From Ridgeia piscesae (lineage: Eukaryota > Annelida > Polychaeta > Sabellida > Siboglinidae): a DNA stretch of 64,000 nt. Under the pieces are notes generated by a model. It made no database searches. It was not told where the DNA came from and worked only from the letters and a program-made list of their open reading frames with translations. This document shows positions 5,538 through 55,275 of this stretch, piece after piece. The stretch spans positions 47,501 to 111,500 of the forward strand of contig JAODUO010001059.1 of assembly GCA_025642075.2 (NCBI GenBank), in the 5' to 3' direction. Positions within the stretch are counted from its first letter, which is position 1; each line of letters begins with the position of its first letter. The position numbers and the translations under genes were made by a program.

Positions 5538-5540
5538 TTA
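4635..5540 (+). pseudogene. LINE B ORF2: endonuclease domain, RT deleted
   Basis: From the Met at 4638 the frame reads YKCVCLNARSIVNKRNELNI and HIIGITESWATPDISDAE, then a TGA at 4836. It continues in the same frame with GYVMFRKDRLGRRGGGVILY, VGLVYRSPN, CIIMGDFNHGHIQW and PLGCSDHNQIHFII. These are the core blocks of an APE-type LINE endonuclease: N of LNARS, E of ITES, D/N of GDFN, and SDH near the end. After NNTLKNKTATECWNILKSEF it jumps to FSQRTVNEWNRLS, which in intact relatives lies at the far C-terminus after the RT. One nonsense codon and one large internal deletion make it inactive. Confidence 0.75.
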
Positions 5541-5972
5541 TCCTGGCCAACGTCGCATACCGCAAGCTGTGGACACTGCGTGTCAGGAGATCACTGGTCT
5601 CGCTACATCCGCGGCTATGATATTACGCATCCTTTGTCGTGCCAGTATTGATGTATAACGTAGGTATGAGGACTTACGTTAGCAGAACTACAGCGCCTGG
5701 AAAGGATACCAGCATTGTCATCTATGCCAAATCATCGGCATCTATTAGCCACATCGCATATCGAACGAGGCACTGTACATGCGGTGCCGATGCTGCCCCA
5801 CAAGCAAAACCGTCGTAACAGCAAGATGGAACCTGTTCGAGCACGTCTTCACATGACGTCAGACGCAGCTACGCAGAGAGCGACAGATAACTACATCGAC
5901 GTAGGGGTCACGACGTGCAAGGGCCGACCGCGGACATCTCTGTCAACGGCGCTGAACGCTGACCAGCATTTA
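5538..5972 (+). pseudogene. LINE A, C-terminal end of ORF2 (broken)
   Basis: Frameshifted plus-strand readings include ILANVAYRKLW, RRSLVSL, then YYASFVVPVLMYNVG, LTLAELQRLERI, PHRISNEALYMRC, TARWNLFEHVF, and NYIDVGVTTCKGRPRTSLST with ALNADQHLT. These blocks are ordered as in the post-RT region of one non-LTR ORF2 family and match the RT fragment at 3590-4137 in style. It stops abruptly at about 5972, where a third LINE begins. At least four frameshifts or stops. Confidence 0.6.
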
Positions 5973-8198: not shown

Positions 8199-9745
8199 CC
8201 ACTTGACTATTGCTCTCCATTTATCTCTTTGCTGTGAGAGTGATGTCCATGAGTCGGTCTTTATGTCTGTCAGCTTCAGGTTTCTCTTCATGGTATCCTT
8301 GAACCGGAGACGAGGGCGCCCTCTCTTTCTGTGACCAGAAGACAGTTGAGAGTAGAAAACCTGTTTTGGTAGCCTGTCTGGTGACATCCTCATAAGGTGT
8401 CCAGTCCACCGGAGATTCTTTCTGATCAGAAGATCTTCCATAGATGGCAGCCGTTTTAGTATTTCCTTTGTTTGTCACTTTGTCCATCCAGGTTATCCTC
8501 ATGATCGAACGCAGATGTCGCATCATGAAGGCATGCAGCTTTTTCACCTGTCGTCTGTACATCGTCCAGGCGTTCTCTCTGTATATGAGGGTGGACAACA
8601 CGATTACACGGTATTTCTTGCCTTGGTGGTTGTTCCAGAGTCTCTGGCGTAGTCGGCCGAAAGATGCACTAAATGTGGCCATCATCCTCTGTATTTCATC
8701 TTCAATGCATCCATTACTTGATATAGTGCTTCCGAAGTAGGTGAATACCAGAACAGAGTTCAGCTTGTTTCCATCAACCATGATATCCTCATCTCGGGTT
8801 CTTGTAGAGTTGGGTTGGTACAGCACCTCGGTCTTCTTGGTGTTAATCTCCAGGCCGATCTTCTTTGACACATCGGAGAAAGCATCCACTATTTTCTGCA
8901 TCTCTTCAGCAGAGTGTGTAACCAGTGCATTGTCATGTGCGAATAACAGCTATCTCATCAGTATCCGAGTAGTCTTGGTCTTCGCCATGAAGTGTGCGAC
9001 GTGGAATAGGTCAGCGCTCTGTCTGGACTGTATGTATACCCCATTCCCCATGTCTCGGAAAGCTTCGTCGAGCATTGCTGATAGGAAGATGGAGAAGAGG
9101 GTGGCGGCCAGTACACAACCTTGCTTGACCCCATTTGTAACACTGAACGATTCCGAGACTTCCCCTCCAACACTAACATTCGCCATCATTCCGGTATGTA
9201 GAGCCTCGATCATTGTTGTGAACTTCTTTGGGCATCCATACTTCCTCGGTAGCTGCCATAGCCCGGTCCTCCCAACTGTATCGAACACCTTACTGAAGAC
9301 GACATATACCATGTACTGTGGTCGGTACTGCTCAATGCATATTTTTTGTAGCTGTCGGAGACAAAATATCATATCCACGGTGCTCCGGTTATCTCTGAAG
9401 CCACATTGTGTCTCCGGAACTACCTCTGGTGTTATGTGGGTAGATAGTCTGGCGAACATCTTGCCTGCTATGGCAAAAGAGAGATTCCTCTATAGTTCCC
9501 ACAGTCTGTTCGATTACCTTTCTTGCAGATGATTACAATGCTGGCATCCTTCCATGCTTGTGGTACAGAACCCATCTCCCAGGCATTGGTGATTAGTTGG
9601 TCCAGTCTGCTGAACAGATTGCCTCCTCCGTGCTTCCATACTTCAGCAGGAATTCCATCTCCCCCAGGTGCTTTGCCATCTTTCAGGCCGGCGATTGCTC
9701 TAGCCATCTCACATTTCATGCCAGCAAAAATGATGAAGTGCCGCT
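8199..9745 (-). mobile_element. LINE D: reverse transcriptase ORF2 relic
   Basis: This is the best-preserved LINE coding region. Reading from 9719 downward: [68 protein letters not shown] (finger), motif A as VYVVFSKVFDTVGR, motif B as VTNGVKQGCVLAATLFSIF, and motif C as LLFAHDNALVTHS. Then come INTKKTEVLYQP, VFTYFGSTISSNG, TLIYRENAWTMYRRQVKKL, and after a frameshift LRWTGHLMRMSPDRLPKQVF and RPRLRFKDTMKRNLK. The catalytic aspartates are damaged: motif A has V in place of the first D, and motif C reads FAHD instead of FADD. A TAG lies just before motif C and several frames change. It is 5'-truncated at about 9745, before the RT. Confidence 0.85.
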
Positions 9746-14363: not shown

Positions 14364-14489
14364 TCAGACCTTCAGCTGGACACTCTCCTGGAGTTTGGCC
14401 ACTGACTTCTGCACTCGTAGAGATGTGAGTCGTGCGGCAGGGTTGCCTGTCCAACACTCCTGCATCAACTTGCCCATGTTCTGTAGATA
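14364..14489 (-). CDS. BMPR1: BMPR1 coding exon 11, kinase C-terminus and stop
   Basis: The acceptor CACTGTTGCAG precedes [20 protein letters not shown], then [21 protein letters not shown] and TGA (residues 475-515). This is the last helix of the kinase C-lobe, with the conserved MxECW and ARLT(A/S)LR motifs of type I receptors. Phase 0 entry. Confidence 0.95.
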
Positions 14490-17400
14490 CTGCAACAGTG
14501 ACACGACAGTGACACGACACAACACAACACAACAATGCCAACGAGAGAGTCAGTCACAGGTACATATGGCTGGTGTTTTAGTGCAATCCTAACAAGTCAT
14601 AATATGTGTCTTCACAGTGAGAGAGTTGCTGCATATTTTCAGTACAGGACAAAGGAAATGGTTGAACACTCTTTACAGAGTACATGTTACCACACACCCG
14701 AGACAGACATGGAGTCAAATGCATTTGCATTTAAATGCAGCTTATCCAGTAACTACATTTGTAAATTTACGGTAAGACATATTTGCATTTACATACATTT
14801 TAAAAGTACTCGAAATATGAAATACTTTTAAAATCCTTTTTCAAACATACTTCTCTCATTTCTGTTTCATATGTCATTTTGGGTTTTAATGGACTGTATT
14901 CCACTTGCTTGTTTAATAAGAAATTATTTTATCGTATATAATTAGTTTGTTGTTATTAATTGTGCACGGACATGAGGACGTCAACAAGAATTAGAAACGT
15001 ATTTGAAATGTATTGGAAATACTTTTTAAGGCATTTGCCAAAAACAAATATATTTGCATTTAAATTCTATTCAATGTTTTTGACTCTGTGTCAGGCCTGC
15101 ACGGGCCATGAGATGACATACCTCGTCATTACTCCACCGGTTCGGTATGGCCGGACGACGTCTCTCTATGCACACCACTTTACGCATCTCCTCAAAGCTT
15201 GGGTCGTTGCCAACAGCGTCGTAGTACGGTACCTCGTAGTCTTCCACAATGCCTACAAACACCACGATTCACTCCAGCATATCTTACAAACATTTGATCA
15301 AATATTCATCAGTCTTGAATTGTAGTTGCACGTGGCATTTGCGGACAAACCCTGCTTTACACATCATAATAATGGTCACCGGTGTACAGTCCAATACTTA
15401 TTTCAATAACAGCAAAAGACATCCAATTACCCAGGGTAATACTGTCCCAATTCCAACAGTTATGATCATAAAATGATGACAGTCCAAATGAGATGAATTA
15501 ACCATAACATTAAAGTTATTTTCTCAATTTATGTTATGTGTTTACACGGCATGCTGAACGAAAAAATGTACACACCTGACAACATAATTTCAAAATAAAA
15601 TGAGACACTCAAAAGTTACATGATGCACTCACCTCCGATGCTACACCTGCGTGCTATCTCCCAGAGCACGAGTCCGAAGGCGTACATGTCGGCCTGTTTG
15701 TACGCCTCAAAGTGGTAGCAGTGGAGACTCTCATCCAGCACCTCAGGTGCCATGTAGCGCTTTGTGCCCTGCCGCGTGTTTGGGGCAATGTCTACCTCAC
15801 TCGTCTCACTGACAACAACACAGTCCACATTACAACTGCGGGTGACCAATAGGGTATAACTATTAAGTGCTGTAGTATTGCCAGTGTCTAGTTACTATGA
15901 CGGTCACATGACAGCGTTAGAATTGAAGAAACCCAGCTTTAAAGTCCTAAACAATAATGTAGAGATACACGATTCCCAAAATGGTGAATCCCTGAATAGT
16001 CAACAACTGTTGGTGCTAGTCCACTAATTAAGTTAAAATTACAAAGATAACATTGAAGAAGCATGTTAATGAACATTATTTTGTGTGACACCGTTACCAG
16101 GGCAGTTAACTGTTTGCCAACTATTTTTACATCAACGGTTAAAAGAACTGTTGGATGCAATTATCCGGTTACATTTACAATAAATTGTACATTTTCGTCA
16201 CATCGACCATTGCATCAGTAATTTCATGTATTGTTACACCTATAATTATATTGTGCCTTGCTTACTGCTAAAAAAACTAAATTCATGAAAACACCATATG
16301 CAATCAGAGCAATTAGAAATGTGCTGAAGAAAGCTGCACAATTCAACTGGAGAAAGATTATAAAAAGCCCCCAAAATTTACTTTCTTTGTAGACAAACAT
16401 ACCTGATATATCTAACGGCAAGTCCCAAATCTGCTATACAGCAACATCCGTTCTTTTTCACCAATATATTCTTGCTCTTGATGTCTCTGTGTGCTATGGC
16501 TGGTTTTCCTGCAAGCAGAGAAACATAGACCATTAAATCACAGCAACTGATGCATCCACCAAACACTACACTGACATAAATGGTCCTGAGTTCGGGAAGA
16601 TGGCACTATTAACTAGCCACAAGCCAATACATCGCCTTAGGCACTACAGAAAGCCCCGACACTAAGGTCATTTCTGTCTAAGGTCATCTCGTCCCACTAA
16701 AATCAGCAATGCGTACTACTCCAGAACCTACCACGAATGAATGAATGATCTAGTGCAAATCAATGTGAAATTGATTCCAACCTGAAATCACCCTGCTAGA
16801 AAACATTACATCCTTCACGGCAGGGTACCTTCAGATAAACCCCACTGTAGTGTGACATTACTCCAGTAGCAGGGAGAATATTATCCTATTTATAACCTCC
16901 ACTGTAGAGTTTGTCTCCACCTAGATACCTGTGTCCACTAGCCTCTGTCCCTGTCCTATACATCGTTGGCCTCTCTAGACCTCATAGACCTTTTACTTTT
17001 TAAATCGAGAATTCGGGCGGTGAGTTATAAATTTAAGATCCTAGTGATGTAGCGATGATGACGGTTACTCTTGATGTGTTGTTAGTGAGCTAACACTGTG
17101 TGACTGTGATACTAGAGTTGTAAATAAACAGATCTTATTCTATAATAATAAACTTCTATATCCTGAGGAACAAGAGCTCAGAGAATAGATTAGTTTACAA
17201 TAACCAGTTGGTATAATCATGAATAGGGACATGCAGGAGACATCATTAGAGATTGTTGAAGGTCTATGGTGGTAATGTGATTTTAAACAAACAAGTCTCG
17301 AGTCTTTTCTGTGAAAAGTGTCAAGTTGAAGGAAGGATAAATTGTTGGGAAACAGAATCGGTCTAATATTCCTAGGAAAGTAACCGCATTAGAAGCCAGT

Positions 17401-20400
17401 TGATAAGCCAGTAGAAAAGATGCGGTGTGTAATAGTGTAATAATCCAAATCGCTACACTTGCCTCTTGTGCCGAAGATCTCTGTGTGTAGGTGTGAGAGA
17501 CCACAGGCAGCGGAGTGGGCGAGACGAAGCATGTCGACTGAGTCAAGGGTGTAGGTCTTCAGGTAGTCATAGAGCGAGCCATGCTCGTGGTAGTCAGTGA
17601 TGAGGAACAACTGTGTCCATGACCCAGTGCCCTTGATGTCAGCCGCAATGAAACCTGCACAACCAGGGCGACACAAAGATCAATTACAATAAATATATAT
17701 TCTTATTTGGCACCAAAACTAATTTTGAACAACCAAAGCCTGCAAAGGAGACTTATATTTAAAATAATAATAAGATGCTACTGTGCATACTACATTCAGG
17801 GTTAACATGAAATGGGGGCTTAATGGTGCTTGTAGAAGTATTTTTTACAGGAAAGTATTGATTAAACTAGCGTATCTTGCACAGTGTTCTGTTCATGTAT
17901 TGTTACATAATGGACCATCCAGGTGACTGTTATGTGGCCTGTAACATACCACTTCTAACGTCTTGTCAGACATAAGCTAGCACAGCCAACAGTAATGTAG
18001 CACTCTATAGCATAGTGGTGGACGACTATAAGGGGACTAACAACTGGTTTCTATACAGAGTAATGCATAATTACTAATCAAGTAGCTATCAGGGGTAGAC
18101 CAAATATCAAAAGGTACTCATATTTTACACAGAGCACAATAAATGACTCGAACAAATTATCTAATGACAGTGTAAATACAAACATCAATGTTTAACAATT
18201 TAAAATATCTCAACACTGAACTACTATTTCATTAATTCCACAATGATCATCAGGTGGCTCACTCTGTTTGACCCAGTATCCACCAGAGGGCAGCAGTGAG
18301 TATTTCACCCACCTAGAATGTTTTCGTGCCTCAGCAGGACTGTCTGGTAGAGTTCTGTTTCCCTGAACCAGCTCGCCTCCTCCGTGGTGAAGAAGATCTT
18401 GACAGCGATGTTCTCCCCACGCCATTTGCCCTTCCATACCTCTCCATAGCGCCCCTTGCCAATGCTCTTCACCAGGTGGATCTGCTTGGCGATGGTGCGT
18501 TGAACCTGCAAACACAAGGCACGTCTACTGTCACCTCAATCTCATCCTACGTGGAGCTCAGTAACTCAGCAGCCAGAGCATTTAGCACTGTGTAGAGTTT
18601 GAATCCTGTCTGTCATTTCAAACCTTGGCCAAGTGTATTCACTGCACAACGCTCCAGTACACTCAGTTGTAAGAATGAGTATATTGCTATAGACAGTAGT
18701 GAATACTTATGTATGAATTGTCTTGGTGCATTAATTGCAATCAAACATCGTCTCGACCTCTCTGGGAAGTTAAAACGATATCTGATTGAACAGGTCTGCC
18801 AGGGAGTAAAGAGTAAGGCACTTTGAGCAGACCTAACGACTGGGTGTGTGCTATGTGTATAGTTATTTACTCTGAACTTTTTAGTATCTACATGTATGTT
18901 TGAACTATGAATATTATGATTCTTTCTTATTAATATTTAACTTGTATCTTAACAAGCACTTTTTTTATCTATATGTTACTGACAATAATATACATTCCAT
19001 GTTTTAGCACTGTAATGCCTCAACTGGGCCATAGATATCAGATTTACAGCAGAAAAATGCTGAACATCTTACTTCTGGACTAAAGTAATATTCTACTATA
19101 CACACAGCAGCAGCAGGATGTTTTCCATTTGTTGTAATCCACAATAGTTTAATCAAACCATTCTTATTCCACACAAGACCAACAGGAATATTTCATTAGT
19201 ACAGATGAAACGAATATAAATAATGTGCCACAACAGATGGTTCACATTACGATTTCACATGCGTACGAGTTAGTGCATTATCAAATTTCAGAAACGTTTT
19301 GATTAACATCCACATTATCAGAGATTTCACAACTTCATCATGCATGATTTCATGCAAATTGTTAGCATATATGCTTCATCACGTAATAGGCTGGAACTAG
19401 ATCCTGGCCAAGGAGCTTCCATGTATCCGTCGGGACAGACAGCAAATTTTTCATCAACGATCTGATTTCCCAATCACGTTATCCGCATCTGGCAAATTGC
19501 TCGCACAGGCTCCACACTACCACACAAATGTTCACATCAGGAACTGGGTAGGAATTACATAACAGGGAAAAAATGACCAGCTGCCTCACACATGCTGGGA
19601 CAGGCACACATTGGTAGACTGGCTACCACCCAGGTAGTTCCTATGCAGAAAGGCCTGGCTGTTCCATCGACCATTCCCACCCCCTGCATACATGAATGCT
19701 ACAGATCTAGCAGCCTGACTGGAGTAATCACTTCCAATTAACCACAGCGCTTTGAAGACAAAGTTCTGCAATAGCATACCCACTCTGGTCAATGGCCTCT
19801 GGCAAACTACAAACACTCTAGTTTTCCCACATTTCTAAGCTGACTAATTTCCCTACAGGGAATCAGGCAACATGAAGCCCTTTCTCTCTCTCTGTTGGAG
19901 ACATCCCCATTCAATTTTGCCTGCAGCTCTGCTAAAAAAACAGTGCCTTAACAAAGTGAAGCTGTTCAACTCCAACAACACAGCTTCTTACCTTCAACAG
20001 AGGGTGTGGTCGGTTTGTCAGTCAGGATATTTTTAGGCAAGATAAACTTTTTGTTTCAAACAATGACAAGTAGTTCAAAGTTTCAAACAGCAGAAAGTGA
20101 ACTATACAAATGCATTTCCCAATCTAATCTTGGAGCAGTTTCACAAAGGTTCGATGGCAATCGCCATGGAAACAGGTGCTGTTCCCATTCACAGGGCCAT
20201 AAACAAGAGCCATTGGGTATTTCAACCCAGAAGAAACATATCAGCCGTTAACTGCAGCCAGTGGTGGCTGGTGGAAACGCACTGATTAGAAAGGTGAACC
20301 AGGCGGGTGTGGGGGGGGTAGGGCGTCTGTCCAGTGTAATTGTTGGGCACTGTCAGGGAACTGTTAACTCCTCTCCACTGTCCGTGGCCACACTTGACAG

Positions 20401-23400
20401 CACCGGCGCCAAGGAGTATGTTTAAAGACCCCGACCAAAAAGGACATGTCAATCATCGCGACCAACGATGCGCGACATGCGTGCTGTGATACCACTGAAC
20501 TTGAACGATGGGAAAAAGGACTGGTGAATCCACCCTGGAATGCTTGCTGTGCACAGGCAGTTGTCTGTTAATGGAGCCGGCAAACTTGTTTAATTCACCT
20601 CAGCAATATCATTAATGAACCTGTCCACTTGTTGAATGTGGGGCTCTGTCAGTGTGCTCTCACTCTACCTGACTGGGCCCTGTCAGTGTGCTCTCACTCT
20701 ACCTGACTGGGGCTCTGTCAGTGTGCTCTCACTCTACCTGACTGGGCCCTGTCAGTGTGCTCTCACTCTACCTGACTGGGGCTCTGTCATTGTGCTCTCA
20801 CTCTACTGACTGCAGTGTGCTCTCACTCTACCTGACTGGGGCCTGTCAGTGTGCTCTCACTCTACCTGACTGGGGCTCTGTCAGTGTGCTCTCACTCTAC
20901 CTGACTGGGGCTCTGTCAGTGTGCTCTCACTCTACCTGACTGGAGGCTCTGTCAGTGTGCTCTCACTCTACCTGACTGGGCTCTGTCAGTGTGCTCTCAC
21001 TCTACCTGACTGGGCTCTGTCAGTGTGCTCTCACTCTACCTGACTGGGCTCTGTCAGTGTGCTCTCACTCTACCTGACTGGGGCTCTGTCAGTGTGCTCT
21101 CACTCTACCTGACTGGGGCTCTGTCAGTGTGCTCTCACTCTACCTGACTGGGGCTCTGTCAGTGTGCTCTCACTCTACCTGACTGGGGCCTGTCAGTGTG
21201 CTCTCACTCTACCTGACTGGGGCCTGTCAGTGTGCTCTCACTCTACCTGACTGGGCCCTGTCAGTGTGCTCTCACTCTACCTGACTGGGGCCTGTCAGTG
21301 TGCTCTCACTCTACCTGACTGGGCCCTGTCAGTGTGCCTCTCACTCTACCTGACTGGGGCTCTGTCAGTGTGCTCTCACTCTACCTGACTGGGCCCTGTC
21401 AGTGTGCTCTCACTCTACCTGACTGGGGCTCTGTCAGTGTGCTCTCACTCTACCTGACTGGGGCTCTGTCAGTGTGCTCTCACTCTACCTGACTGGGCTC
21501 TGTCAGTGTGCCTCTCACTCTACTTGACTGTGGCCCTGTCAGTGTGCCTCTCACTCTACTTGACTGGGCCCTGTCAGTGTGCCTCTCACTCTACTTGACT
21601 GGGCCCTGTCAGTGTGCCTCTCACTCTACTTGACTGGGGCCCTGTCAGTGTGCCTCTCACTCTACTTGACTGTGGCCCTGTCAGTGTGCCTCTCACTCTA
21701 CTTGACTGTGGCCCTGTCAGTGTGCCTCTCACTCTACCTGACTGGGCCCTGTCAGTGTGCCTCTCACTCTACTTGACTGGGGCCCTGTCAGTGTGCCTCT
21801 CACTCTACTTGACTGGGGCCCAGTCAGTGTGCCTCTCACTCTACTTGACTGGGGCCCTGTCAGTGTGCCTCTCACTCTACTTGACTGGGGCCCTGTCAGT
21901 GTGCCTCTCACTCTACTTGACTGTGGCCCTGTCAGTGTGCCTCTCACTCTACTTGACTGGGGCCCTGTCAGTGTGCCTCTCACTCTACCTGACTGGGCCC
22001 TGTCAGTGTGCCTCTCACTCTACTTGACTGGGCCCTGTCAGTGTGCCTCTCACTCTACTTGACTGTGGCCCTGTCAGTGTGCCTCTCACTCTACTTGACT
22101 GGGGCCCTGTCAGTGTGCCTCTCACTCTACTTGACTGGGGCCCTGTCAGTGTGCCTCTCACTCTACTTGACTGTGGCCCTGTCAGTGTGCCTCTCACTCT
22201 ACTTGACTGGGGCCCTGTCAGTGTGCCTCTCACTCTACTTGACTGGGCCCTGTCAGTGTGCCTCTCACTCTACTTGACTGGGCCCTGTCAGTGTGCCTCT
22301 CACTCTACTTGACTGGGGCCCTGTCAGTGTGCCTCTCACTCTACTTGACTGGGGCCCTGTCAGTGTGCCTCTCACTCTACTTGACTGGGGCCCTGTCAGT
22401 GTGCCTCTCACTCTACTTGACAGGGGCTCTGTCAGTGTGCCTCTCACTCTACTTGACTGGGGCCCTGTCAGTGTGCCTCTCACTCTACTTGACTGGGGCC
22501 CTGTCAGTGTGCCTCTCACTCTACTTGACTGGGGCCCTGTCAGTGTGCCTCTCACTTTACTTGACTGGGGCCCTGTCAGTGTGCCTCTCACTCTACTTGA
22601 CAGGGGCTCTGTCAGTGTGCCTCTCACTCTACTTGACTGGGGCCCTGTCAGTGTGCCTCTCACTCTACTTGACTGGGCCCTGTCAGTGTGCCTCTCACTC
22701 TACTTGACTGGGGCCCTGTCAGTGTGCCTCTCACTCTACTTGACTGGGGCCCTGTCAGTGTGCCTCTCACTCTACCTGACTGGGCCCTGTCAGTGTGCCT
22801 CTCACTCTACCTGACTGGGGCCCTGTCAGTGTGCCTCTCACTCTACTTGACTGGGCCCTGTCAGTGTGCCTCTCACTCTACTTGACGGGGCCCTGTCAGT
22901 GTGCCTCTCACTCTACTTGACTGGGGCCTGTCAGTGTGCCTCTCACTCTACTTGACTGGGGCCCTGTCAGTGTGCCTCTCACTCTACTTGACGGGGCCCT
23001 GTCAGTGTGCTCTCACTCTACCTGACTGGGGCCCTGTCAGTGTGCCTCTCACTCTACTTGACGGGGCCCAGTGTGCTCTCACTCTACTGACTGGGGCCCT
23101 GTCAGTGTGCCTCTCACTCTACTTGACTGGGGCCCTGTCAGTGTGCCTCTCACTCTACTTGACTGGGGCCCAGTTAGTGCATCTCACTCTACCTGACTGG
23201 GGCCCTGTCAGTGTGCCTCTCACTCTACTTGACTGGGGCCCTGTCAGTGTGCCTCTCACTCTAATTGACTGGGGCCCAGTTAGTGCATCTCACTCTACCT
23301 GACTGGGGCCCTGTCAGTGTGCCCCCCCTCCTTTACCCCTACTCTGACTGGGGCCCTGTCAGTGTGCCTCTCACTCTAATTGACTGGGGCCCAGTTAGTG

Positions 23401-24995
23401 CATCTCACTCTACCTGACTGGGGCCCTGTCAGTGTGCCTCTCACTCTACGTGACTGGGGCCCTGTCAGTGTGCCTCTCACTCTACCCGACTGGGGCATGT
23501 TGTTGGTGCATTTTAATGCACACCTGGCCAGTTGTGGCCTTTGATACTTCAGTATGTGATCATAGAAATCAGCTGCTTTAAAACGTTTCTAAGTGCATAT
23601 ACAGATTAGAGAATCAAAGAGAAACATTTGTGATAACATGTGCCAAGAAAATATAAATTTCAAACTGTGAAAGTTTGCCTCCCTCATTGACTACGTTCAA
23701 GATTATTCAGAAAATGCTACTCTCTTTGTAAAACGATATAATGGTTTTGTAGTGGAAGCCAAAGATGCTATCTATTTAAATAAAAATTAACATCACTCCT
23801 ATTGACCCCTATTCTAAAACAGTGAACTTTCCCAGTGAAATGCTGCACCACCATTAATTTGTCCTTGATGAAACTGGCATGAAGCACTTAAAGACGATGA
23901 GATAAAGCATTACAATGCCACATATTTTGTTATAACAATGTGTAGGAATTTAGATGCTGAAATTAAGTCTGATATCTAATTTCATGGAAAACAAATGCAG
24001 CACTTTGCATTCCATAGTTCGTCCTGATAAAGCCAGTTCCAAAGTCAGTGAGGTCATTTTTACCCACCTCTAAGTAAATATTTGCTGGTATATGCGCAAT
24101 ACACCTTGAAATTTCAACTGTTTTGACATTTTACTGATATTCTGTCAAGACCCCAAACAATATAGCTGTGAATTAAAGACAGCATCAAAACAGTGATTGT
24201 GTCTGAGTTGATGTGTCAGACATATATTTTCGTAGATGTAATTAATTTATAGTACATCAGATATACTGCCACACAAAAGCATGCGATTTAGCAAAACTGC
24301 CCACCATCTGGAGAACACTAAATGTACACAAATCAGAAAACAGTTTCACAGTTTGATATGTTAATTGTTTTTATGACACAAACATAACTGAGTTTTTATA
24401 ACAATGCCAATTCCCATGAATCAATGCTCCTTGAAACAATCGCACACACCAGTGTTTCCCCTGCTATACAACGAGCGAGGTGGGCCACCTCACTCTGTCT
24501 CTAAGCCACCATGCCAAAATATGCTTAAATTGACACCTCAGAGCTATTTTCTTAAGTTACTTTACAATTAATGCTACATGTTTACATGTAAATTTGAAAT
24601 TTCTTTCTCCACTATACATGAGGGAATAGATTAAAACACACTTCATAATGCCATTATATTTCTTGTATATCACCCAAGGATAGGGCCCAGATCACCATAG
24701 CACTGCATCATGCATTCAGCATTTGCTCAGCTCACGATATCACCTCACCCATAATTTTACCCAGGGAAACCACTGCAAACTATGTGTAACTTTATAAATA
24801 GCTGATTTATGGTACACACCCTAAACCCATTAAAATACCATTAAACATAAGGGGAATGTGAAAACATATCAAGGCAATACATAACTTCGAAGGGTGCATG
24901 TATTAATCACTGAAAGTGCAAGTCAAACCATTTAGGAAAATAAACACACACACACACACACAACGCACGCACGCATGCATGCACGCACGCACACA

Positions 24996-25027
<32 letters not shown>

Positions 25028-28000
25028 CACACAAATACATACACGTATTATACAAGTACGGTACCACAATTACACTAAGTTTAATCTGTGTGTTTTGAGA
25101 CGAGTCACATACATGTCACTAACTGTACCCATGCCCAGTGTATGACCAGCTGAATGTGAGTGAAGGGTGTCCGGTACTTACCAGCAAGGGCAGTCCGGAG
25201 CCACTGCCAGAGCTCTGTGACTGGTCAATGAGTTCTCGCAGTGATTCGCCATTGGGGATGTAAGTGTCACAGTGTTCCACTTCCTCCAAGTAGCCAGCCT
25301 GTCGCTCCTCTCGCTTCTTGTACCTACACAAATATCAGGTTTTTAAAACACCACGGATATAATAAAACTACTTTTCTTTTGAGGTATAAATTACATTATT
25401 TTTGCATTTAAAACTAACCAAATAAAATGTAATGGCATTACTCATTCACTTCACAAATGCTAATTTTATTTCTAATATGTCACTAAGCCAGCCAATTTCA
25501 GAAATGCAACATCTTGCACCATGGCTTAAATATGTAAATCGGCCCATTTACACTTGTATGCATGTGTACACACTCACAACATCATACACAACACATTATA
25601 CATTCCATTTTTGATATTAGCCATGTCAGTATATAAAACCCAGGTAATGCCCACTTCCACCTCAATAAACTACACCGTAATGTGACGTTTACTGCAGCAG
25701 CAGCAGCAATGCATGAACACTAAAGACAAACATAACTGTGCCGAAAGGAAAATATATCATGACATCAGTAACATAAAAGAAGAAGATTGGCAGCCATTAT
25801 CTAAGAATGATACGCATTTTCTTTGAACTATGAACTAGTCCAATATTGAAGATGCTTTGCCATTTAAATCGAAACATTTAAAATACATTTTGTGGTTCAT
25901 CAAATGCACAACAGTCAATTTACCAGTGTGTGTTTTATGCATTTGAAATTGCACTTGAGAGTGCACAGAAACTACAGAAAAAGAATGTAAACACATCAGC
26001 AAGCCATTTTATCATTCCTCTTTTTCATCATCATTGATCATCCACACAGACCTCCCTTAGGCATCATCTGATTAATCAAAAAGCATCAAGTCTAACAGTT
26101 TAGAACAGGACGAATGACATTACATCACAGCACAGTAAGAATGATGGGCACAAACAATCTTCATTATACCCTGTAGCAGGGTAATTTGCTTTGGTTGCAA
26201 TCTGACTTATTATGTGTACTTTGCACGTCAAATTAACCCACTCTAATGACAGTAGTCCATTGTTTTGGCATCAGGACAAACACCATTCACATGACAAGTA
26301 ACCATGCAGCACTTCTGATTTCACAACCATGCAAGCTTTCTACACATAGCTTCTAACTACCTTCTGTTATTCTAGGCACACTGTTGGCATTTTTCCCAGT
26401 GACAGGATGGGCTAGCAATTGTCCCTGGAACTCACCAGACACAGGTTAACCCTTCACTCGTCATGACCACCCCATGTGTAACCACAATAACTTATTTTTG
26501 CAGGTTAGAAATAAACTGCCACTACTATGACAATGAAGAGAACTACTGTGGGTCCCATTCAAACGTAATACAGAACAGAACAAGTGGTGAGATGGCTGCC
26601 TGACACCAACCAAATACTTAGCGGAGTGGACAAGGGTTAACAGCACCCACTACACAGGCAAGGATTCCCACTCAATCCTGCCTGTAATTCCTACGCAAAC
26701 TGTCTGCAGTACCCAACTGTGACTGACAACTGTAATCTGATTCTGAATGACTGTTACACTAAACAGTACATCTTTGCTGCATAATGCCATCCACGTGATG
26801 ACAATCAGTAGTAACATCTGAGGTGTTGCAAAAGAATGCCACATTCTCTTTATACTCCTGTCTACCCGTATCATTACACCCTGTCACATCCTAGGCTGTA
26901 TCATTACACCCTGTCACATCCTAGGCTGTATCATTACACCTTGTCACACCCTAGGCTGTATCATTACACCCTGTCACACCCTAGGCTGTATCATTACACC
27001 CTGTCACATCCTAGGCTGTATCATTACACCCTGTCACATCCTAGGCTGTATCATTACACCCTGTCACATCCTAGGCTGTATCATTACACCTTGTCACATC
27101 CTAGGCTGTATCATTACACCCTGTCACATCCTAGGCTGTATCATTACACTGTCACATCTAGGCTGTATCATTACACCCTGTCACATCCTAGGCTGTATCA
27201 TTACACCCTGTCACATCCTAGGCTGTATCATTACACCCTGTCACATCCTAGGCTGTATCATTACACCCTGTCACATCCTAGGCTGTATCATTACACCCTG
27301 TCACATCCTAGGCTGTATCATGACACCCTGTCACATCCTAGGCTGTATCATTACACCTTGTCACATCCTAGGCTGTATCATTACACCTTGTCACATCCTA
27401 GGCTGTATCATTACACCCTGTCACATCATAGGCTGAATCATTACACCCTGTCACATCCTAGGCTGTATCATTACACCTTGTCACATCCTAGGCTGTATCA
27501 TTACACCCTGTCACATCCTAGGCTGTATCATTACACCTTGTCACATCATAGGCTGTATCATTACACCTTGTCACATCCTAGGCTGTATCATTACACCTTG
27601 TCACATCCTAGGCTGTATCATTACACCTTGTCACATCCTAGGCTGTATCATTACACCCTGTCACATTCTAGGCTGTATCATTACACCTTGTCACATCCTA
27701 GGCCGTATCATTACACCTTGTCACATCCTAGGCTGTATCATTACACCCTGTCACATCCTAGGCCGTATCACTACACCTTGTCACATCCTAGGCTGTATCA
27801 TTACACCCTGTCACATCCTAGGCCGTATCACTACACCTTGTCACATCCTAGGCCGTATCATTACACCTTATCACATCCTAGGCTGTATCATTACACCTTG
27901 TCACATCCTAGGCTGTATCATTACACCTTGTCACATCCTAGGCTGTATCATTACACCTTGTCACATCCTAGGCTGTATCATTACACCTTGTCACATCCTA

Positions 28001-31000
28001 GGCTGTATCATTACACCCTGTCACATCCTAGGCTGTATCACTTTCACCTTGTCACATCCTAGGCTGTATCATTACACCCTGTCACATCCTAGGCTGTATC
28101 ACTACACCTTGTCACATCCTAGGCTGTATCATTACACCTTGTCACATCCTAGGCTGTATCATTACACCTTGTCACATCCTAGGCTGTATCATTACACCTT
28201 GTCACATCCTAGGCTGTATCATTACACCCTGTCACATCCTAGGCTGTATCATTACACCTTATCACATCCTAGGCTGTATCATTACACCTTGTCACATCCT
28301 AGGCTGTATCATTACAACTTGTCACATCCTAGGCTGTATCATTACACCCTGTCACATCCTAGGCTGCATCACTACACCTTGTCACATCCTAGGCTGTATC
28401 ATTACACCTTGTCACATCCTAGGCTGTATCATTACACCCTGTCACATCCTAGGCTGTATCATTACACCCTGTCACATCCTAGGCTTTATCATTACACCTT
28501 GTCACATGCTAGGCTGTATCATTACACCTTATCACATCCTAGGCTGTATCAAACCTCCTGTGTGTATATGTGTGTGTGCCCATTTCATTCCTGTGACCTG
28601 ATATTGCGAAAGTTGGATAATTGGTGAAGATATCAATACATACAGACCAGGGAGTACACCATACACACACAAGCACACACAACACAAGTTGCTTCTTCAC
28701 TCATTGTCTCTGTCACCACACACTAAATATGACTATGGGTAACAACAGTAGGAGATCCTAGATATGACTGGCTTTACAGACTCATACTTTACATATACCG
28801 TTGGCACAGAGTTTCACGTTTTGTGGCTGGCATAGAACGTGAGGCCAGAGAGCTAAAAACTGACTGAGTGATCACATATGCAGATGCATATCAGGAAACA
28901 AACAGCTCCCAGACAGACAAGAAATCAAACGCTGCTGACATCTCAAAGAAAACTGTTCTGAGAATTAAAACCAGCCGATAACTCCGGGAATGCAGTCGTC
29001 AACAATGTCACAAACACTGCAGAATCAGACACGGTAAAAAACGACGAAGACTGCTGAGAATTCAAAGTGAGAAATCAAAGAAATCCGGGAGTGAAAAGGT
29101 GGCGCCTGTGACTGTAGGCTGCTTTGAAGTGCGCTGCCTGTACATGTGACCCCCACAAGGCAGGCAGTCAGCAGTGGAAGTTGAATGGAGCAAACAGTGA
29201 AGTCTGGATGAAAGGTTTAGATATTAGCACCACACACAATCATCATGCGTGACTGAGCAAACTCATATTCACAAAAGCTGATGAAAGTGGCACTGGATAT
29301 GTGACACTTTACTGGCATAAAACACGTAGGCCTACACAAGCTAGCCTAGTTTTCCTATTTATTTGATGTTGACTGTTAAGACTTACTTATCTGAGACTGA
29401 TGAAGGAGATGATGATGATGATGTGCGAGACCCACATCAAATAGATGACGGATATTGTACTGACAAATGAGAGTAACCTCAGGTAGACAAAGGAGACTGT
29501 GGTAACATTCGAGACATACCTCAGGTATACAAAAGAGACTGTGGTGACATTCAAGTCTTACCTCAGGCAGACAAAGGAGACTGTGGTAACATTCAAGTCT
29601 TATCTCAGGCAAACAAAGGAGACTGTGATAACATTCAAGTTTTACCTCAGGTAGATAAAGGAGACTGTGATGACATTCAAGTCTTACCTCAAGTAGACGA
29701 TTGAGACTGTGGTGACATTCAAGTCTTACCTCAAGTAGACGAATGAGACTGTGGTAACATTCAAGTCTTACCTCAAGTAGACGAATGAGACTGTGGTAAC
29801 ATTCAAGTCTTACCTCAAGTAGACGAATGAGACTGTGGTAACATTCAAGTCTTACCTCAAGTAGACGAATGAGACTGTGGTAACATTCAAGTCTTATCTC
29901 AGATAGACAAAGGAGACTGTGGTGACATTCAAGTCTTACCTCAAGTAGACGAATGAGACTGTGGTAACATTCAAGTCTTACCTCATGTAGACGATTGAGA
30001 CTGTGGTAACATTCAAGTCTTACCTCAAGTAGACGAATGAGACTGTGGTGACATTCAAGTCTTACCTCAAGTAGACGAATGAGACTGTGGTAACATTCAA
30101 GTCTTACCTCAAGTAGACGAATGAGACTGTGGTAACATTCAAGTCTTATCTCAGGTAGACAAAGGAGACTGTGGTGACATTCAAGTCTTACCTCAAGTAG
30201 ACGAATGAGACTGTGGTAACATTCAAGTCTTACCTCAAGTAGACGAATGAGACTGTGGTGACATTCAAGTCTTACCTCAAGTAGACGAATGAGACTGTGG
30301 TAACATTCAAGTCTTATCTCAGGTAGACAAAGGAGACTGTGGTGACATTCAAGTCTTACCTCAAGTAGACGAATGAGACTGTGATGACCAGTATGATGAG
30401 GCACACACTGACAGAGACCAGGAGGACAATCTGAGTGACGTTGTCGCGGTAGAACTCACTGCCAGTGTAACCTACAACCACACAACAGAGTGCACTAACA
30501 GCACGGAAGACACAACCACTGTGGCTAAATCAACTGTACAATCATTAATTATAAAATCAAACATAAAGTATAAATATTCTAGCATCTTCAATGCCCAAAT
30601 GTGTTGTAATGAATCGTAATGTATTTATGTATAATTTAGCTACTAGTTGTCATTTGGTACATTTGTGAACAGCTGTCGACATATTTAATATACATTAGCA
30701 TTGTAGACAGTTGGGATGAGAATCTTGGAAGTGATTACCTCAGGTGAGGGGCAAATAACTAGAACTCACCAAAAAATACTAAGATTGTTTCTAATCGCAT
30801 GTAATGCAAACAAAAGCTATAGCATTTTTTAACTTATCTCCTTCTTTGAATTTAGTCTAGGTTAGTTAGACATTGTAATTCACTTAATTAACCAAACAAT
30901 ATCATTAATTTAAACAAATATGAGACACAAACATATGTCAACTTATGTATTCTAATAAGTGTATAAGAGTACCCCCATTTTCAATAGTTCCCAAAACGAC

Positions 31001-34000: not shown

Positions 34001-37000
34001 GCTCCTTGAAATTAATTCTCACCCAGACTTTCCCACTGCAGGAATTTTAATCATTCAATACCTGTCTCCCTGTATTGATTATCATGACGGAAACTTTGAT
34101 ACTTAGCTTATGGTGGATTAGAGAGCATTGTAGAGAAACACATTTGAAAACGATCCATAAATTAAGTGACATATTCTGTTTATTGATGAATTTTTGTGTG
34201 AAGTTAGTTAAATGATTACCTTAGTTCAATCCTCTGAGAGGAGATAATGTATTCTTAAAGAAGTCCACAAGTAAATAGAATCCACTCCTAAATTAAAAGA
34301 GTCTTTTATGAAATGCCTCTGCTTCAACTTGGCCAATATCCATAAAACACTGGTGAAAGTGTCATCATGGCAACTCCTGTCTTTTTAATTGTTTTTAAAA
34401 TCGATTTTAAAGTACAAAGTCTGGCTTATGACCTCATAGGAATGTTGGTGAAACAATCAGCAGGCCACAAAACGTAAGGCAAAAAAAGGTAGGTATGGTA
34501 CAAAATAATTATGATATATCTGGTATGTTTAACATGCAACACTGAAGGCCTGAAGCAGAGCAATTATACAAGTTAATTCTGCATTTTCCTATTACACACC
34601 TGCAGATGGTCACATGTACACACATATTCAAACACACTTACCAGGACGTAATGTTGGACTATCTCGCAGCACTGGCTGCAGCTTCAAGTTGCACTGGTCA
34701 AAGTTATCGCAGCAGAGAATGGTCTTGGGCGTCAGATGTGGCACCAAGTTACCTCGACACTGAAGACACAAACATTGCAACATCATGTCTCTGTGACATC
34801 TCACAAAATGCTACATTATCTTTTTAGAAATGCATGTGTGCCTCAGACTGTCATCTGTAATGGAATCAGAGGTGATCGTTCCACAGAAACATGGCTGATT
34901 CGAAGACCTCAATTTCAAGGTACAGGCATGTATACATGATATGGACAGTGTTAAGAATGATGAATGTAACTGTAAACAACAGATCATCCATTCACATACA
35001 TGCCAACTTTCCAAGGCAGTACCACAGGAAACTACTGCAACTGCAGCAAGTTATAAATTAGATAACAAATAAATACATGACACTCTACATTTGAGAATAT
35101 CTTGTTGATTTTATGTTGTTTTGGTTGTGGAATTTGGCTGATACGAAACCACATAAATGCATTCTTTGTACCAAGAAATTATCACAGTAATGTATGCCTG
35201 GTGGTGGAATGGTAACAATGTTTTTTTCAAATAATATACAGAACTTCAGGGAAACAGTGACGCAACTGAGTTGGCAACACTGCAAGAATGCCTTGTTTAT
35301 ACAAACATTTCTCACTGCACTGCGTTTCCACATCATCAACTTATGGGTATTTCTGGCTGAAACCCACGGTAAACGCACGCATTATTTGCATTTCACCACT
35401 GCTTCACGTCTGAATTAACCCTAAAAATTATTTGGGAAAACATCCCTTGAGCAGTGGAACAGAAAGAGTACCCTTGAGCAATTTCAGGATTTTTTTAAAA
35501 ATCTTTTAAGGCATTCCACAATGTGGCACCCCTTCCCTCCCTCTACACTGCAACTAATGTAAGCCCAACAATAATCTATGTAGACATTTTATATTCCCAT
35601 GCATGTCTACTGTGGCCGGCATGTCTCACAAGGACACTACTTCTGTTCTCAGTGGACACACCATATTCCCATCCGTGTGGCTTGGCCACATCCCTAAATC
35701 AAACAGTCGAAAAAGCGGCTGAGACGCTCAACAGCATGTATACGATCAAACAAGATAGATTTCTTCCCGCACAGAAATCGATGTGGGCAATTAATCTACA
35801 CTCCTCTAGAACGCGTCGCATCCAAATATAAGCTGAGACACAGATGCACAGTTTGGCAGAATCAACGAAAACGTTATTAAATAAACATACACAACCACGA
35901 CAAGGTCATGCTGATGGCGGTTCATTATCCGAGCGGCTGTGTTTGTGTGGTGTGGCTCCTGGTGATTTCTTACATGATTGGTCACTCTACTAACATTACA
36001 ACCCGTGCACACAACTGTGTCATTAGGGTAGCAGGTTTCTGCTCTGCTCATGTGCAAGTACCGATGTTATGGATTTTCGCTAAGCAACAGATATTTAGGT
36101 TGGTAGTTCTTATCTTAGAGTTGAAGAAACTCTGTAAGTCTCATCTTGGTGCAACCATCTGTGTAAGACCACTGGATAATTTGTCATCGTAATAGCAATA
36201 ATCATAAAATATTGAAGGGATATAATTCTTTAACTAAGAAATTATATATATTTGAGCATTTGTCCTGGAAATGTTGATAGTTGGTCACAAATCAAACTTT
36301 GATATTCACTATAAAAAAAGTTTACAAAATAAAAAAGTGATTACTCAAAATTATGCACCAGTGTAATTTACATTATAACATGATTTGCGCTGTCATCGAT
36401 CAGACATTGTGACTGTCAACATTCCAACATGACTGGTTGTCCAATCCATGGCCTGGAGTGGTAATCATTAACACTTAGTGTAATTGTTTGTCTTGAATGT
36501 AACCCACCTCATTGTTGTTCTATGCCCCCTCACTCTAAATATACCAACATTGTCACCTCGTAGCTAGTTCTTGCTATAAATTTGTTCAAATGCTGCTACC
36601 TTTTAGTTATGCATTTGTTTCCTCTCTATTTTCCAGGGGATACACCCTTCAGAATGCACCATTTTGAAGGTATTTTTTTTTAATACTTCTGGTTGGTAAT
36701 GCCCTGGATCCACATGTATATAAGATATGTGAGGAGTATTTTGGCGGTTGTATGTTGTCATTTTCGTAGTTAATTCAGAAAGTAAAACATCGCCCGATAC
36801 TGATTTTGCGGCAGAGGACATGAAGGAAAAATATTCGAGCGATATTCGTTTATATAGCTGCAAATTTTGAATACGAAACAAATTTCATCCCATCTTTAGT
36901 GGACTAATATGACTACTCTTGACATCAAAGAGCAGCTAAAATCAGCCAACAGATTTGTTTACAATACAATGTCATTTTTCATTTACTTTTCTCTGTAAAA

Positions 37001-39007
37001 TTTCAAATAGCAAACACTGTTTCTGGCTTATTAAATATGCAATATGGAAACATATGGAACATATCTATTCAAACCTTAAAATGATCACTTTTTTAAATAG
37101 GTACAACCAACCTACCTTCAAGTTTGCTGCCAGCAAGCAAGCCAGCAAGCCAGGGATATCGTCAAACGCAACCATGGCTTATGTGAATGTTTTATCAGAT
37201 ACAGCTCATACAGGACATCAAGAGAAAGACTGCCTTACCTGCAAGATGGAGCCCTCTTCAGGAGGGAGACAGCCATAGCTGCGCACCTCCACATCATCAG
37301 GGTCTAGTTCGACGGAGGTGAAGCACTTGCCCTCTGGCTTGAGCAGACACGTTGTGTTGCCACTGTACACCTCACAGTCACTGCAGTAGCAGTAGATGCC
37401 GTCCACTGCAAGCACACCAAGGATGACTTCAGTATGTCTTGTGTGTCTAAAGTTAAGGTTTTAGTGGGAAACTGTTGGGAGTCTTACTCTGCTCATATTT
37501 GGGAGTTCGCAGAAAAATGTAGGAGCCTGCATTTTTTTCTACAAATCAAATAACCTAAACCATTTAAGCTCATGTAATGCTTTACTTGTTAACTTTACAA
37601 TCTTCTTTCAGCAATCAACTACCATAATTAATGATTATTTTTGTACTGAATAATATGTACTTTGTAACTTAGTTTGTCAAATATATTACAGCACTCCAAT
37701 CTCCTGCATACATAATCCAATACTTTGATCAATCACATTCACAAGTGTAGACCTCTATCATATGTAGTCACAATCCAAGATGGCTGTGTCCATGCTGGAT
37801 CCATAAGCAACACAAAGCACAGTGCATACAAGTACTTTAGAACTGTGGTGCCAGCTGAACCCCTACTTTCCAAAAGCTAAGCAATATATTGGATGCCAGC
37901 CACATGTTCCAATATAACAGGTGTCTGCTCAGCCCTGTAACTAGTACTTTTGGTTCATAATGTTCATATATTGTTCCATAATTCTCTAAACATATTTGTA
38001 AAAAATATTAATATTATATACCCCTTAGAAGGGACATAAAAATGCTTTCTGCATTAAGCAGGTGTCCCCTCATTAAAGGGACATCAACTGGACAAAACAG
38101 TCTGTACATTGAGAAACTTTCTTGAGCTAACAGCTGTTCCCTCGTCTGGGAGTTACACGAAGGCAGGGACTACTGTACCATTTATTCTTTGTATTTCCCC
38201 AATAAAATTTCACACATCTTGTTTGTAACATAAGTATGAGGGATCAAGTAAATTAGCTTCCCAACCTCCATTTCTCACATCTTGGTACATGCTGTATAAT
38301 ACGACGATAACATCCACTGTAAGACTACTAGGTAGATGACTTCAGAACTTTGGTAAAGGTTCTATCTTGAAAAATAATTATGAACATTTCAGCTTCAAAA
38401 GCAGCTGTTTCTCAGAAAGGCATTATTAATTAAAATGCCCAATGAAATAGATCTGGTCAAGGAAGTACATGTGGATAAATTAGTTATTAATCACACAGAA
38501 AGTGCTGCTTTATGCTTAATAAATGGAATTTTATAAATGGAATTTGAACAACAACAATGTTTAAGCCAGTACCTCACTGTGTTGCTGTTTACAAGACTAT
38601 ACAACTGTGTTTTCACGACATAATTTTCACATACTGATTATATTTCAAGTACCACGTAGACATGATATTTCAGCATTACTATTCAGCACAAATGTAACTA
38701 TAGTATAATGTCACAACATCTACGTTGTATGCACAATGATTATAAAGACATTCCTTTGATCATAACAAATTACACACTAGGCTTACATAGGTCATAGGAT
38801 AATGATTATAGGACATGACCATGATAACTGATAATATCAGAAAAGACTAAGTACAACACTGTCATTTGATACAGCAGAACTAATGGTAATAATCAGAGAC
38901 TAACCAGTTATTATGTATGTGTGTGTGTGTGTGTGTATATATATACATATATATAATTATATGTATAATGTGTGTATATATATACAATATATATATATAT
39001 CATATAC

Positions 39008-53553: not shown

Positions 53554-53574
53554 CTAACGATACCGTATCACAAG

Positions 53575-55275
53575 ACCAGCAACCGTACCCGCACACAAAC
53601 CGCAACCGTACCCGCATCACAAGCCGCATCCGTACAACCGCAACCGTACCCGCATACACAAACCGCACCGTACCCGCAACACAAGCCGCATCCGTACCCG
53701 CAACACAAACCGCAACCGTACCCGCATCACAAACCGCAACCGTACCCGCAACACAAGCCGCATCCGTACCCGCATACAAAGCCGCAACCGTACCCGCAAC
53801 ACAAACCGCAACCGTACCCGCATCACAAACCGCAACCGTACCCACAACACAAGCCGCATCCGTACCCGCAACACAAGCCGCAACCGTACCCGCATCACAA
53901 ACCGCAACCGTACCCGCATCACAAGCCGCAACCGTACCCAATCACAACCGCATCCGTACCCGCAACACAAGCCGCATTTTCCGTACCGCAACAAACCGCA
54001 ATCCGTACCCGCAACACAAGCCGCATCCGTACCCGCAATCGATACAAGACCGCAACCGTACCCGCACACAAGCCGCAACCGTACCCGCATCACAAAGCCG
54101 CATCCGTACCCGCATCACAAGCCGCAACCGTACCCGCATCACAAGCCGCAACCGTACCCGCAACACAAGCCGCAACCGTACCCGCATCCGTACCCGCATA
54201 CACAAGCCGCAACCGTACCCGCATCACAAACCGCATCCGTACCCGCAACACAAGCCGCAACCGTACCCGCAACACAAGCCGCATCCGTACCCGCAACACA
54301 AGCCGCAACCGTACCCGCATCACAAACCGCATCCGTACCCGCATCACAAGCCGCAACCGTACCCGCAACCGTACCCGCATCACAAGCCGCAACCGTACCC
54401 GCAACACAACCGCAACCGTACCCGCATCACAAACCGCAACCGTACCCGCACACAAGCCGCAACCGTACCCGCAACACAAGCCGCAACCGTACCCGCAACC
54501 GTACCCGCAACCGTACCCGCATCACAAGCCCAACCGTACCCGCATCACAAGCCGCAACCGTACCCGCATCACAAGCGCAACCGTACCCGCACACAAGCCG
54601 CATCCGTACCCGCACACAAGCCGCATCCGTACCCGCAACACAAGCCGCACCGTACCCGCATCACAAACCGCAACCGTACCCGCAACACAAGCCGCATCCG
54701 TACCCGCAACACAAGCCGCATCCGTACCCGCAACACAAGCCGCAACCGTACCCGCATCACAAACCGCATCCGTACCCGCAACACAAGCCGCAACCGTACC
54801 CGCATCACAAACCGCATCCGTACCAGCAACACAAGCCGCATCCGTACCCGCAACACAAGCCGCAACCGTACCCGCATTACAAGCCGCAACCGTACCCACA
54901 TCACAAACCGCATCCGTACCCGCATCACAAACCGCATCCGTAACCGCAACACAACCGCAACCGTACCCGCAACACAAGCCGCATCCGTACCCGCATCACT
55001 AACCGCAACCATACCCGCAACGCAAGCCGCAACCGTACCACAAGCCGCAACCATACCCGCATCACAAGCCGCAATCGTACCCGCATCACAAGCCGCAACC
55101 GTACCCGCATCACAAGCCGCAACCGTACCCGCATCACAAACCGCAACCGTACCCGCATCACAAACCGCAACCGTACCCGCATCACAAGCCGCAACCGTAC
55201 CCGCAACACAAGCCGCAACCGTACCCGCATCACAAACCGCATCCGTACCCACACCACAAGCCGCAACACAAGTCG
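53575..55275. repeat. minisatellite, 24-bp unit, about 70 copies
   Basis: The unit is CCGCAACCGTACCCGCATCA followed by CAAG, with variants CCGCATCC and CGCAACACAAG and many one- or two-base slippages that change frame. Open frames on both strands (for example repeats of PYPQHK or AVCDAGTV) are artefacts of stop-free repeat units. Confidence 0.95.

Follow-up and report, generated by a model that had tools for sequence, protein, structure and literature searches.

Tandem copies of a 5' splice site at the transmembrane exon of an annelid BMPR1 gene, and donor arrays at further exon ends in its genome

Intron 7 of the human F7 gene carries repeats, the primary paper on which is that of Borensztajn (2006). 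According to a review, these repeats are 37 bp long and splicing in the normal condition takes only the donor lying furthest upstream, a preference for the first donor that has been shown in mammals (PMC6627357). A second system is known in the human CBS gene, where a 31-bp VNTR, c.1444_1467+7(16_21), joins 24 exonic to 7 intronic bases and is found in 16-21 copies (PMC2630376). The VNTR is polymorphic and its units may vary by single substitutions (PMC2630376, PMC5188458, PMC1395315); enzyme activity falls as repeats become more numerous (PMC5188458). The CBS duplication 844ins68 is described as giving preference to the more distal of two sites; the junction named for it, intron 7/exon 8, is by our own reading a 3' splice site. 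A screen of human genes in segmental duplications reported 162 alignments in which repeats at an exon-intron boundary vary, and 27 intron changes were left after inspection (PMC2812944). Intron gain by tandem duplication has also been described (PMC4974935).

The array analysed here is found in a BMPR1 gene of the annelid Ridgeia piscesae. The window, by which the whole analysed stretch of 64,000 nucleotides is meant, belongs to a contig of 160 kb; the genome totals 628 Mb.

The BMPR1 gene and its 42-bp array

The gene had been recognized as BMPR1 in an earlier note made from the DNA letters, and all the receptor domains are indeed present. Ectodomain, transmembrane (TM) segment, GS motif and Ser/Thr kinase, the set distinguishing BMP type I receptors, are encoded by one gene. 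Ten coding exons have been placed on the minus strand, from 37405 to 14364, and when joined they stay open over 486 residues, starting at the second coding exon and ending at the C-terminus. The product features the Pfam domains Activin_recp (PF01064), TGF_beta_GS (PF08515) and kinase (PF07714); the TM segment was identified by reading the sequence directly. The closest solved structure is the BMPR1B kinase 3mdy (E 1.4e-179), and the top protein match is from Paralvinella palmiformis (72% identity), followed by nemertean and mollusc sequences. The gene is organized as follows:

37239..37405, minus strand: second coding exon, ectodomain (open-frame exon model)
34642..34759, minus strand: third coding exon, ectodomain (open-frame exon model)
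30360..30471, minus strand: TM exon, 112 nt, ending in phase 2 (alignment with 18 relatives)
25324..30359, minus strand: TM-GS intron, 5036 nt, 51% of which is made up of two minisatellites
25182..25323, minus strand: GS-domain exon, next after the TM exon (exon model and Pfam)
14364..18505, minus strand: six kinase exons (18505-18313, 17654-17463, 16508-16403, 15808-15633, 15252-15122 and 14489-14364, the last including the stop)

One of the kinase introns has a GC donor (GAG/GCAAGT, window 17457-17465, minus strand). Elsewhere in the window, the open frames at 4839-5651 and 8221-9489 resemble, by eye, pieces of retrotransposon endonuclease/reverse transcriptase.

The array starts at the end of the TM exon and extends into the TM-GS intron:

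29464..30387, minus strand: 42-bp tandem array, 22 units (TRF and cutting in register)
30346..30387, minus strand: unit 1, carrying the real TM exon end
30354..30362, minus strand: real 5' splice site (donor 1), GAG/GTAAGA
30356..30358, minus strand: TAA stop in the receptor frame, met by transcripts that retain the intron or use a distal donor
30304..30345, minus strand: unit 2, with the dead donor GAG/ATAAGA
30262..30303, minus strand: unit 3, first intact donor of the distal copies, 84 nt beyond donor 1
29464..29673, minus strand: distal end of the array (units 18-22), where every unit belongs to family B

The array had been described in the earlier note as about 22 tandem copies of the BMPR1 donor. 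TRF detects it at 29476-30383 (period 42, 21.6 copies, 92% matches, score 1459), and cutting in register gives 22 units, followed by a decayed 23rd (25/42 identity). Each unit combines the last 28 bases of the TM exon with the first 14 of the intron, the real exon end being in unit 1, exactly as had been proposed. Most units have kept a strong donor: in 15 of the 22 (units 1, 3, 4, 5, 7, 8, 9, 10, 11, 13-17 and 20) it is identical to that of unit 1 (GAGGTAAGA). The donor GT is changed to AT, and the site is dead, in units 2, 6, 12 and 19, and units 18, 21 and 22 have weakened donors. Twelve distinct unit types are found among the 22, and nine units are mutually identical. The most diverged units are 18, 19, 21 and 22, which match the consensus at 32-35 of 42 positions; unit 20 matches at 38, and units outside the 18-22 group at 36-42. 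A trend of decay toward the distal end is suggestive only (Spearman -0.40, p=0.06). The 42-bp family was found nowhere else in the 628-Mb genome by a word search, which may miss common words. A 359-aa frame is open through the array, and was rejected as a candidate: it is expected, since the 42-bp unit happens to be stop-free in one frame, and it differs from the receptor frame.

Units fall into two families, A (14 units, exon included) and B (8 units, 2, 6, 12 and 18-22). Three sites separate A from B, and each of them is synonymous when read in the receptor frame; as 22 of the 84 possible changes in this stretch are synonymous, three out of three has a chance of about 0.02. Among all 13 variants, 8 are synonymous (binomial P 0.008). 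The only frequent nonsynonymous variant, Ile to Thr at -25, is found in 19 of the 21 intronic copies and is absent from the exon. These few sites suggest that the exon is constrained and the copies are not; on the simplest reading, units would have been seeded repeatedly from the exon, or exchanged with it, and selection would have maintained the exon while the copies varied freely. Among 18 aligned BMPR1 relatives, FVYLR is found in 9 and YLR in 13; the end of the TM exon is conserved, and the exon is therefore the source of the array. In the array itself no donor-specific conservation was detected, as the nine donor columns vary like nine random columns (P=0.37).

Each unit had also been thought to include an acceptor-like ACCACAG/TC site, which would make the array a series of repeated micro-exons. 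CAG/TCT is found in all 22 units; the preceding ACCACAG is complete in only 19. In the 21 intronic sites, pyrimidines occupy 9 of 20 positions (20 copies) or 11 of 20 (one copy), toward the lower end of what the ten acceptors of BMPR1 itself show (8-14 of 20). Only 23 nt separate a donor from the next acceptor-like site. This is below the minimum intron size, so neighbouring units could not be spliced to each other. Distant units may be, and the micro-exon reading is doubtful.

Donor arrays elsewhere in the genome

Triplets of tandem donors spaced by 15-45 bases were searched for in the genome, and arrays were then read on their 5' side. Among the places listed, 28 arrays were examined: 5 found by AGGTRAGW (contigs C2-C3), 14 by CAGGTAAGT (C4-C158) and 9 by GAGGTAAGA (C21-C153), out of 4875 contigs. 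The search picks intact donors by design, which biases tests of donor conservation on these other arrays.

In 13 of the 28 a coding exon ends within the first unit. Eight of these are supported by direct homology (two weakly) and five by indirect evidence or by the reading frame. The exon ends, with match values in brackets, are:

L037: succinyl-CoA:3-ketoacid CoA transferase (2e-13)
L039 (C11): poly(A) polymerase-like palm domain (4e-9)
L040: solved domain of KIAA1719, which we take to be a PDZ domain of GRIP (3e-12)
L041 (C37): C2H2 zinc finger (7e-13)
L047: guanylate cyclase (4e-8)
L051: CFAP46 (1e-15)
L048 (C104:211400-214100): IP3 receptor, weak (9e-4 overall, no single stretch passing)
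L049: TPR, weak (0.0023, below the Pfam cut-off)
L033 (C3:990000-994500, minus strand): TM-like exon preceded by two sushi exons, indirect support
L042, L052, L056, L057: exon end by open frame and acceptor only; L056 has two open frames

No donor-edge exon was seen in the remaining 15 (L003, L006/L008, L034, L035, L038, L043, L044, L045, L046, L050, L053, L054, L055, L058 and L059). Among these, the L050 array lies about 140 nt beyond an exon-like frame, and in L035 and L044 all of the sequence retrieved is array, with no edge in it. The L043 array (C104:247800-250500) instead lies over the acceptor end of an exon on the opposite strand that matches IP3 receptors (7e-18). Two exons matching IP3 receptors, one of them (L048) weakly, are thus found on the same contig, each at a minisatellite, the former at its acceptor and the latter at its donor.

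L033 is, after that of BMPR1, the second TM-like exon with a donor array in this genome; the exon ends in AALFLVWR/GTAAGT, and 49-bp units extend over more than 5 kb (C3:990000-994500 and C3:985028-990628). In L039 and L041 the periods are divisible by three and the coding frame is stop-free as far as it was read. Retention would repeat in frame a poly(A)-polymerase-like stretch (SDMDLCLMLCHSQ) in the former and part of a zinc finger in the latter.

When the reversed word TGAATGGAC was searched three times in tandem as a control, 5 arrays were found, versus 12 for the donor word CAGGTAAGT, in contigs C1-C132 (p=0.14). In four of the five, the 5' edge has no coding frame that convinces, as judged from frames alone. 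The fifth, L064 (C94:159950-162700, minus strand), is itself an exon-edge donor array. The exon ends in RRHDIRLNGQ and is followed by 36 or more copies that carry a donor; the 19 spacings read are of 50 or 49 bp, and unit 1 has CAG/GTGGGT. Its peptide has no Pfam match and no solved relative, and matches three database proteins (97, 66 and 90% identity). As L064 was found by a non-splice word, exon-edge arrays appear also when donor motifs are not chosen.

At the level of triplets the excess of donors is mixed: 17,820 versus 13,299 reversed for AGGTRAGW, 844 versus 404 for GAGGTAAGA, and only 689 versus 629 for CAGGTAAGT, all counts being dominated by long arrays. The acceptor word TTTTACAGG gave 100 triplets genome-wide, versus 154 reversed, in 10 contigs, and the 3' side was read for one array on each of 9 of these. 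One array (L067, C370:141740-144200) runs into the start of a RECQL1 helicase exon (5e-42), and another (L072) is found at a long open frame that has no Pfam match. Acceptor-edge arrays therefore exist, but look rarer than donor-edge ones by raw, unnormalised counts. An array of 46-bp units at C105:567954-568238 (L065), in which an acceptor-like TTTTACAG is followed by 18 bases and a donor-like GTAAGG, looks like a set of tandem micro-exon cassettes.

It is tempting to regard 5' splice sites as favoured birthplaces of minisatellites, with hundreds of genes or more featuring donor arrays that start exactly at coding exon ends, such arrays being more frequent than those at acceptor edges and than those at the same 9-mers in non-genic DNA. 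We hold this view only tentatively, and lean against it. Single CAGGTAAGT sites number 6723 versus 5252 for the reversed word, from which about 22% would be true donors, and the 7 or 8 of 14 CAGGTAAGT arrays found at exon ends exceed this fraction (p 0.019 or 0.004). If half of the CAGGTAAGT sites were real donors, there would be no excess (p 0.6 or 0.4). Were splice sites such hotspots, one genome would provide a large natural experiment on spliceosome choice among identical donors, and would inform also on how intronic arrays exchange sequence with the ends of exons.

The recurrence across genes is more interesting than the BMPR1 array alone. If first donors are nearly always used across the arrays, ordered 5' splice-site choice gets a strong test in vivo; if distal donors are used, these genes would produce an unusual series of isoforms.

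Origin of the array and alternative readings

The array is best explained by the growth of an exon-edge minisatellite across the TM exon/intron junction, tolerated since the first donor would be the one used; we give this reading a probability of about 0.8. A tandem duplication across the junction would have started the array, and the usual unequal exchange or slippage would have expanded it within the intron to its 22 copies. The spliceosome would take the first donor, by the 'oriented scanning' reported for human F7, although some distal use is plausible, given that 14 distal copies carry exactly the sequence of the real donor. With the first donor expected in use, full-length receptor mRNA would still be made, and the copies would be tolerated as a neutral array. 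Transcripts stopping upstream of many junctions are expected targets of NMD. Those using a distal donor keep all the downstream junctions, and would therefore be expected among such targets; the occasional one, stopping after the TM helix, would be removed.

Six minisatellites make up 12.3% of the window, and random placement hits at least one splice boundary in 68% of trials. Besides the 42-bp array, they include:

26868..28551, no strand assigned: second minisatellite of the TM-GS intron, 30-bp unit, 56 copies (TRF)
20639..23496: large minisatellite, 36-bp unit
53563..55267: large minisatellite, 24-bp unit

The array might alternatively exert a generic effect on splicing, the many U1 sites competing for U1 or holding it, slowing down splicing, causing partial retention or serving as spare donors. 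The pairing energy with U1 is -9.6 kcal/mol in 14 distal donors, the same as in the real one. The decrease of CBS activity with repeat number points in the same direction (PMC5188458), as does the exon skipping, with use of downstream intronic sites, described for mutation of the first F7 donor (PMC6627357). Such an effect is nevertheless improbable, as no signal of selection for donor maintenance is found in the array, and its RNA folds in an ordinary manner (z -0.17, 265 nt over six units). The same folding value ruled out the array as a structured RNA.

A regulated switch, in which distal donors are used on purpose to make a BMPR1 that sits in the membrane, lacks the kinase and, like BAMBI, dampens BMP signalling, is less probable still, and we consider it very unlikely. 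The earlier note, which had predicted a BAMBI-like product, was correct in that the receptor frame reads AGG TAA directly past the first donor, and any distal-donor product ends right after the TM helix. Such a product, put at about 161 residues in the note, comes to 132 when counted from the second coding exon up to the TAA stop (first coding exon excluded from the count); it would retain the Activin_recp domain and, by sequence, the TM helix, and 14 distal donors equal the real one. The stop, however, is automatic, because a GTAA donor in a phase-2 intron reads xxG TAA. The tabulation covers 14 exon-edge donor arrays, that of BMPR1 among them; 7 lie in phase 2, and all 7 meet an immediate stop; the unit period is divisible by three in 3 of the 14, which is near chance. 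The donor nearest to the real one, in unit 2, is dead, donor columns show no extra conservation, and arrays of this sort are found also in unrelated genes. The BMPR1 locus encodes a full kinase receptor, and the BAMBI-family gene is a separate one, at C747:63160-63423 (L036, E 1.4e-17), the sole such match in the genome. No kinase-less BMPR1 relative was found among the 15 candidates sharing words, a weak test. As NMD is also expected, a dedicated truncated receptor is unlikely.

Finally, an assembly artefact or a wrong copy number is hardly credible: tandem repeats are frequently mis-sized, but this one has 12 unit types among its 22 units, the diverged ones at the distal end, lies inside a 160-kb contig, and shares its exon-edge pattern with other genes, which can hardly be artefactual.

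Comparison with known systems

BAMBI, as described in pearl oyster (PMC5569090), resembles the hypothetical BMPR1 product in having a type I-like ectodomain and a TM segment and no kinase. It differs because it is a separate gene, whereas the truncated product of BMPR1 is only predicted, and would probably be an NMD target. The duplications reported in PMC2812944 and PMC4974935 share with BMPR1 a recurrent, splice-site-bearing duplication at an exon border. There, new introns may arise and recent paralogues are involved, whereas the BMPR1 copies lie inside an old intron and their acceptors are doubtful. Since repeats occur at many human exon-intron boundaries (PMC2812944), recurrence as such has precedent. 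No other account of genome-wide donor arrays appears in the titles or abstract openings of the literature searched.

The BMPR1 array had been presented as having no known parallel among receptors. The arrangement itself is already present in human CBS and F7 and in other genes of this genome; in a signalling receptor, we know of no earlier exon-edge array.

The CBS VNTR is close to the BMPR1 array, as its unit, judging from the VNTR name, spans the exon-intron junction and its copy number is similar. Gene and lineage differ, and the CBS repeat is polymorphic in people and reported to cut enzyme activity. F7 and BMPR1 both feature near-identical repeats with the real 5' splice site in the first and potential donors in the downstream copies; splicing has been tested in F7, whereas the BMPR1 array is read from DNA alone. 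The F7 copies are fewer than the 22 of BMPR1. With a junction-spanning unit that includes a donor, and copies running from the exon end into the intron, the BMPR1 array joins the exon-edge repeats of the CBS/F7 type.
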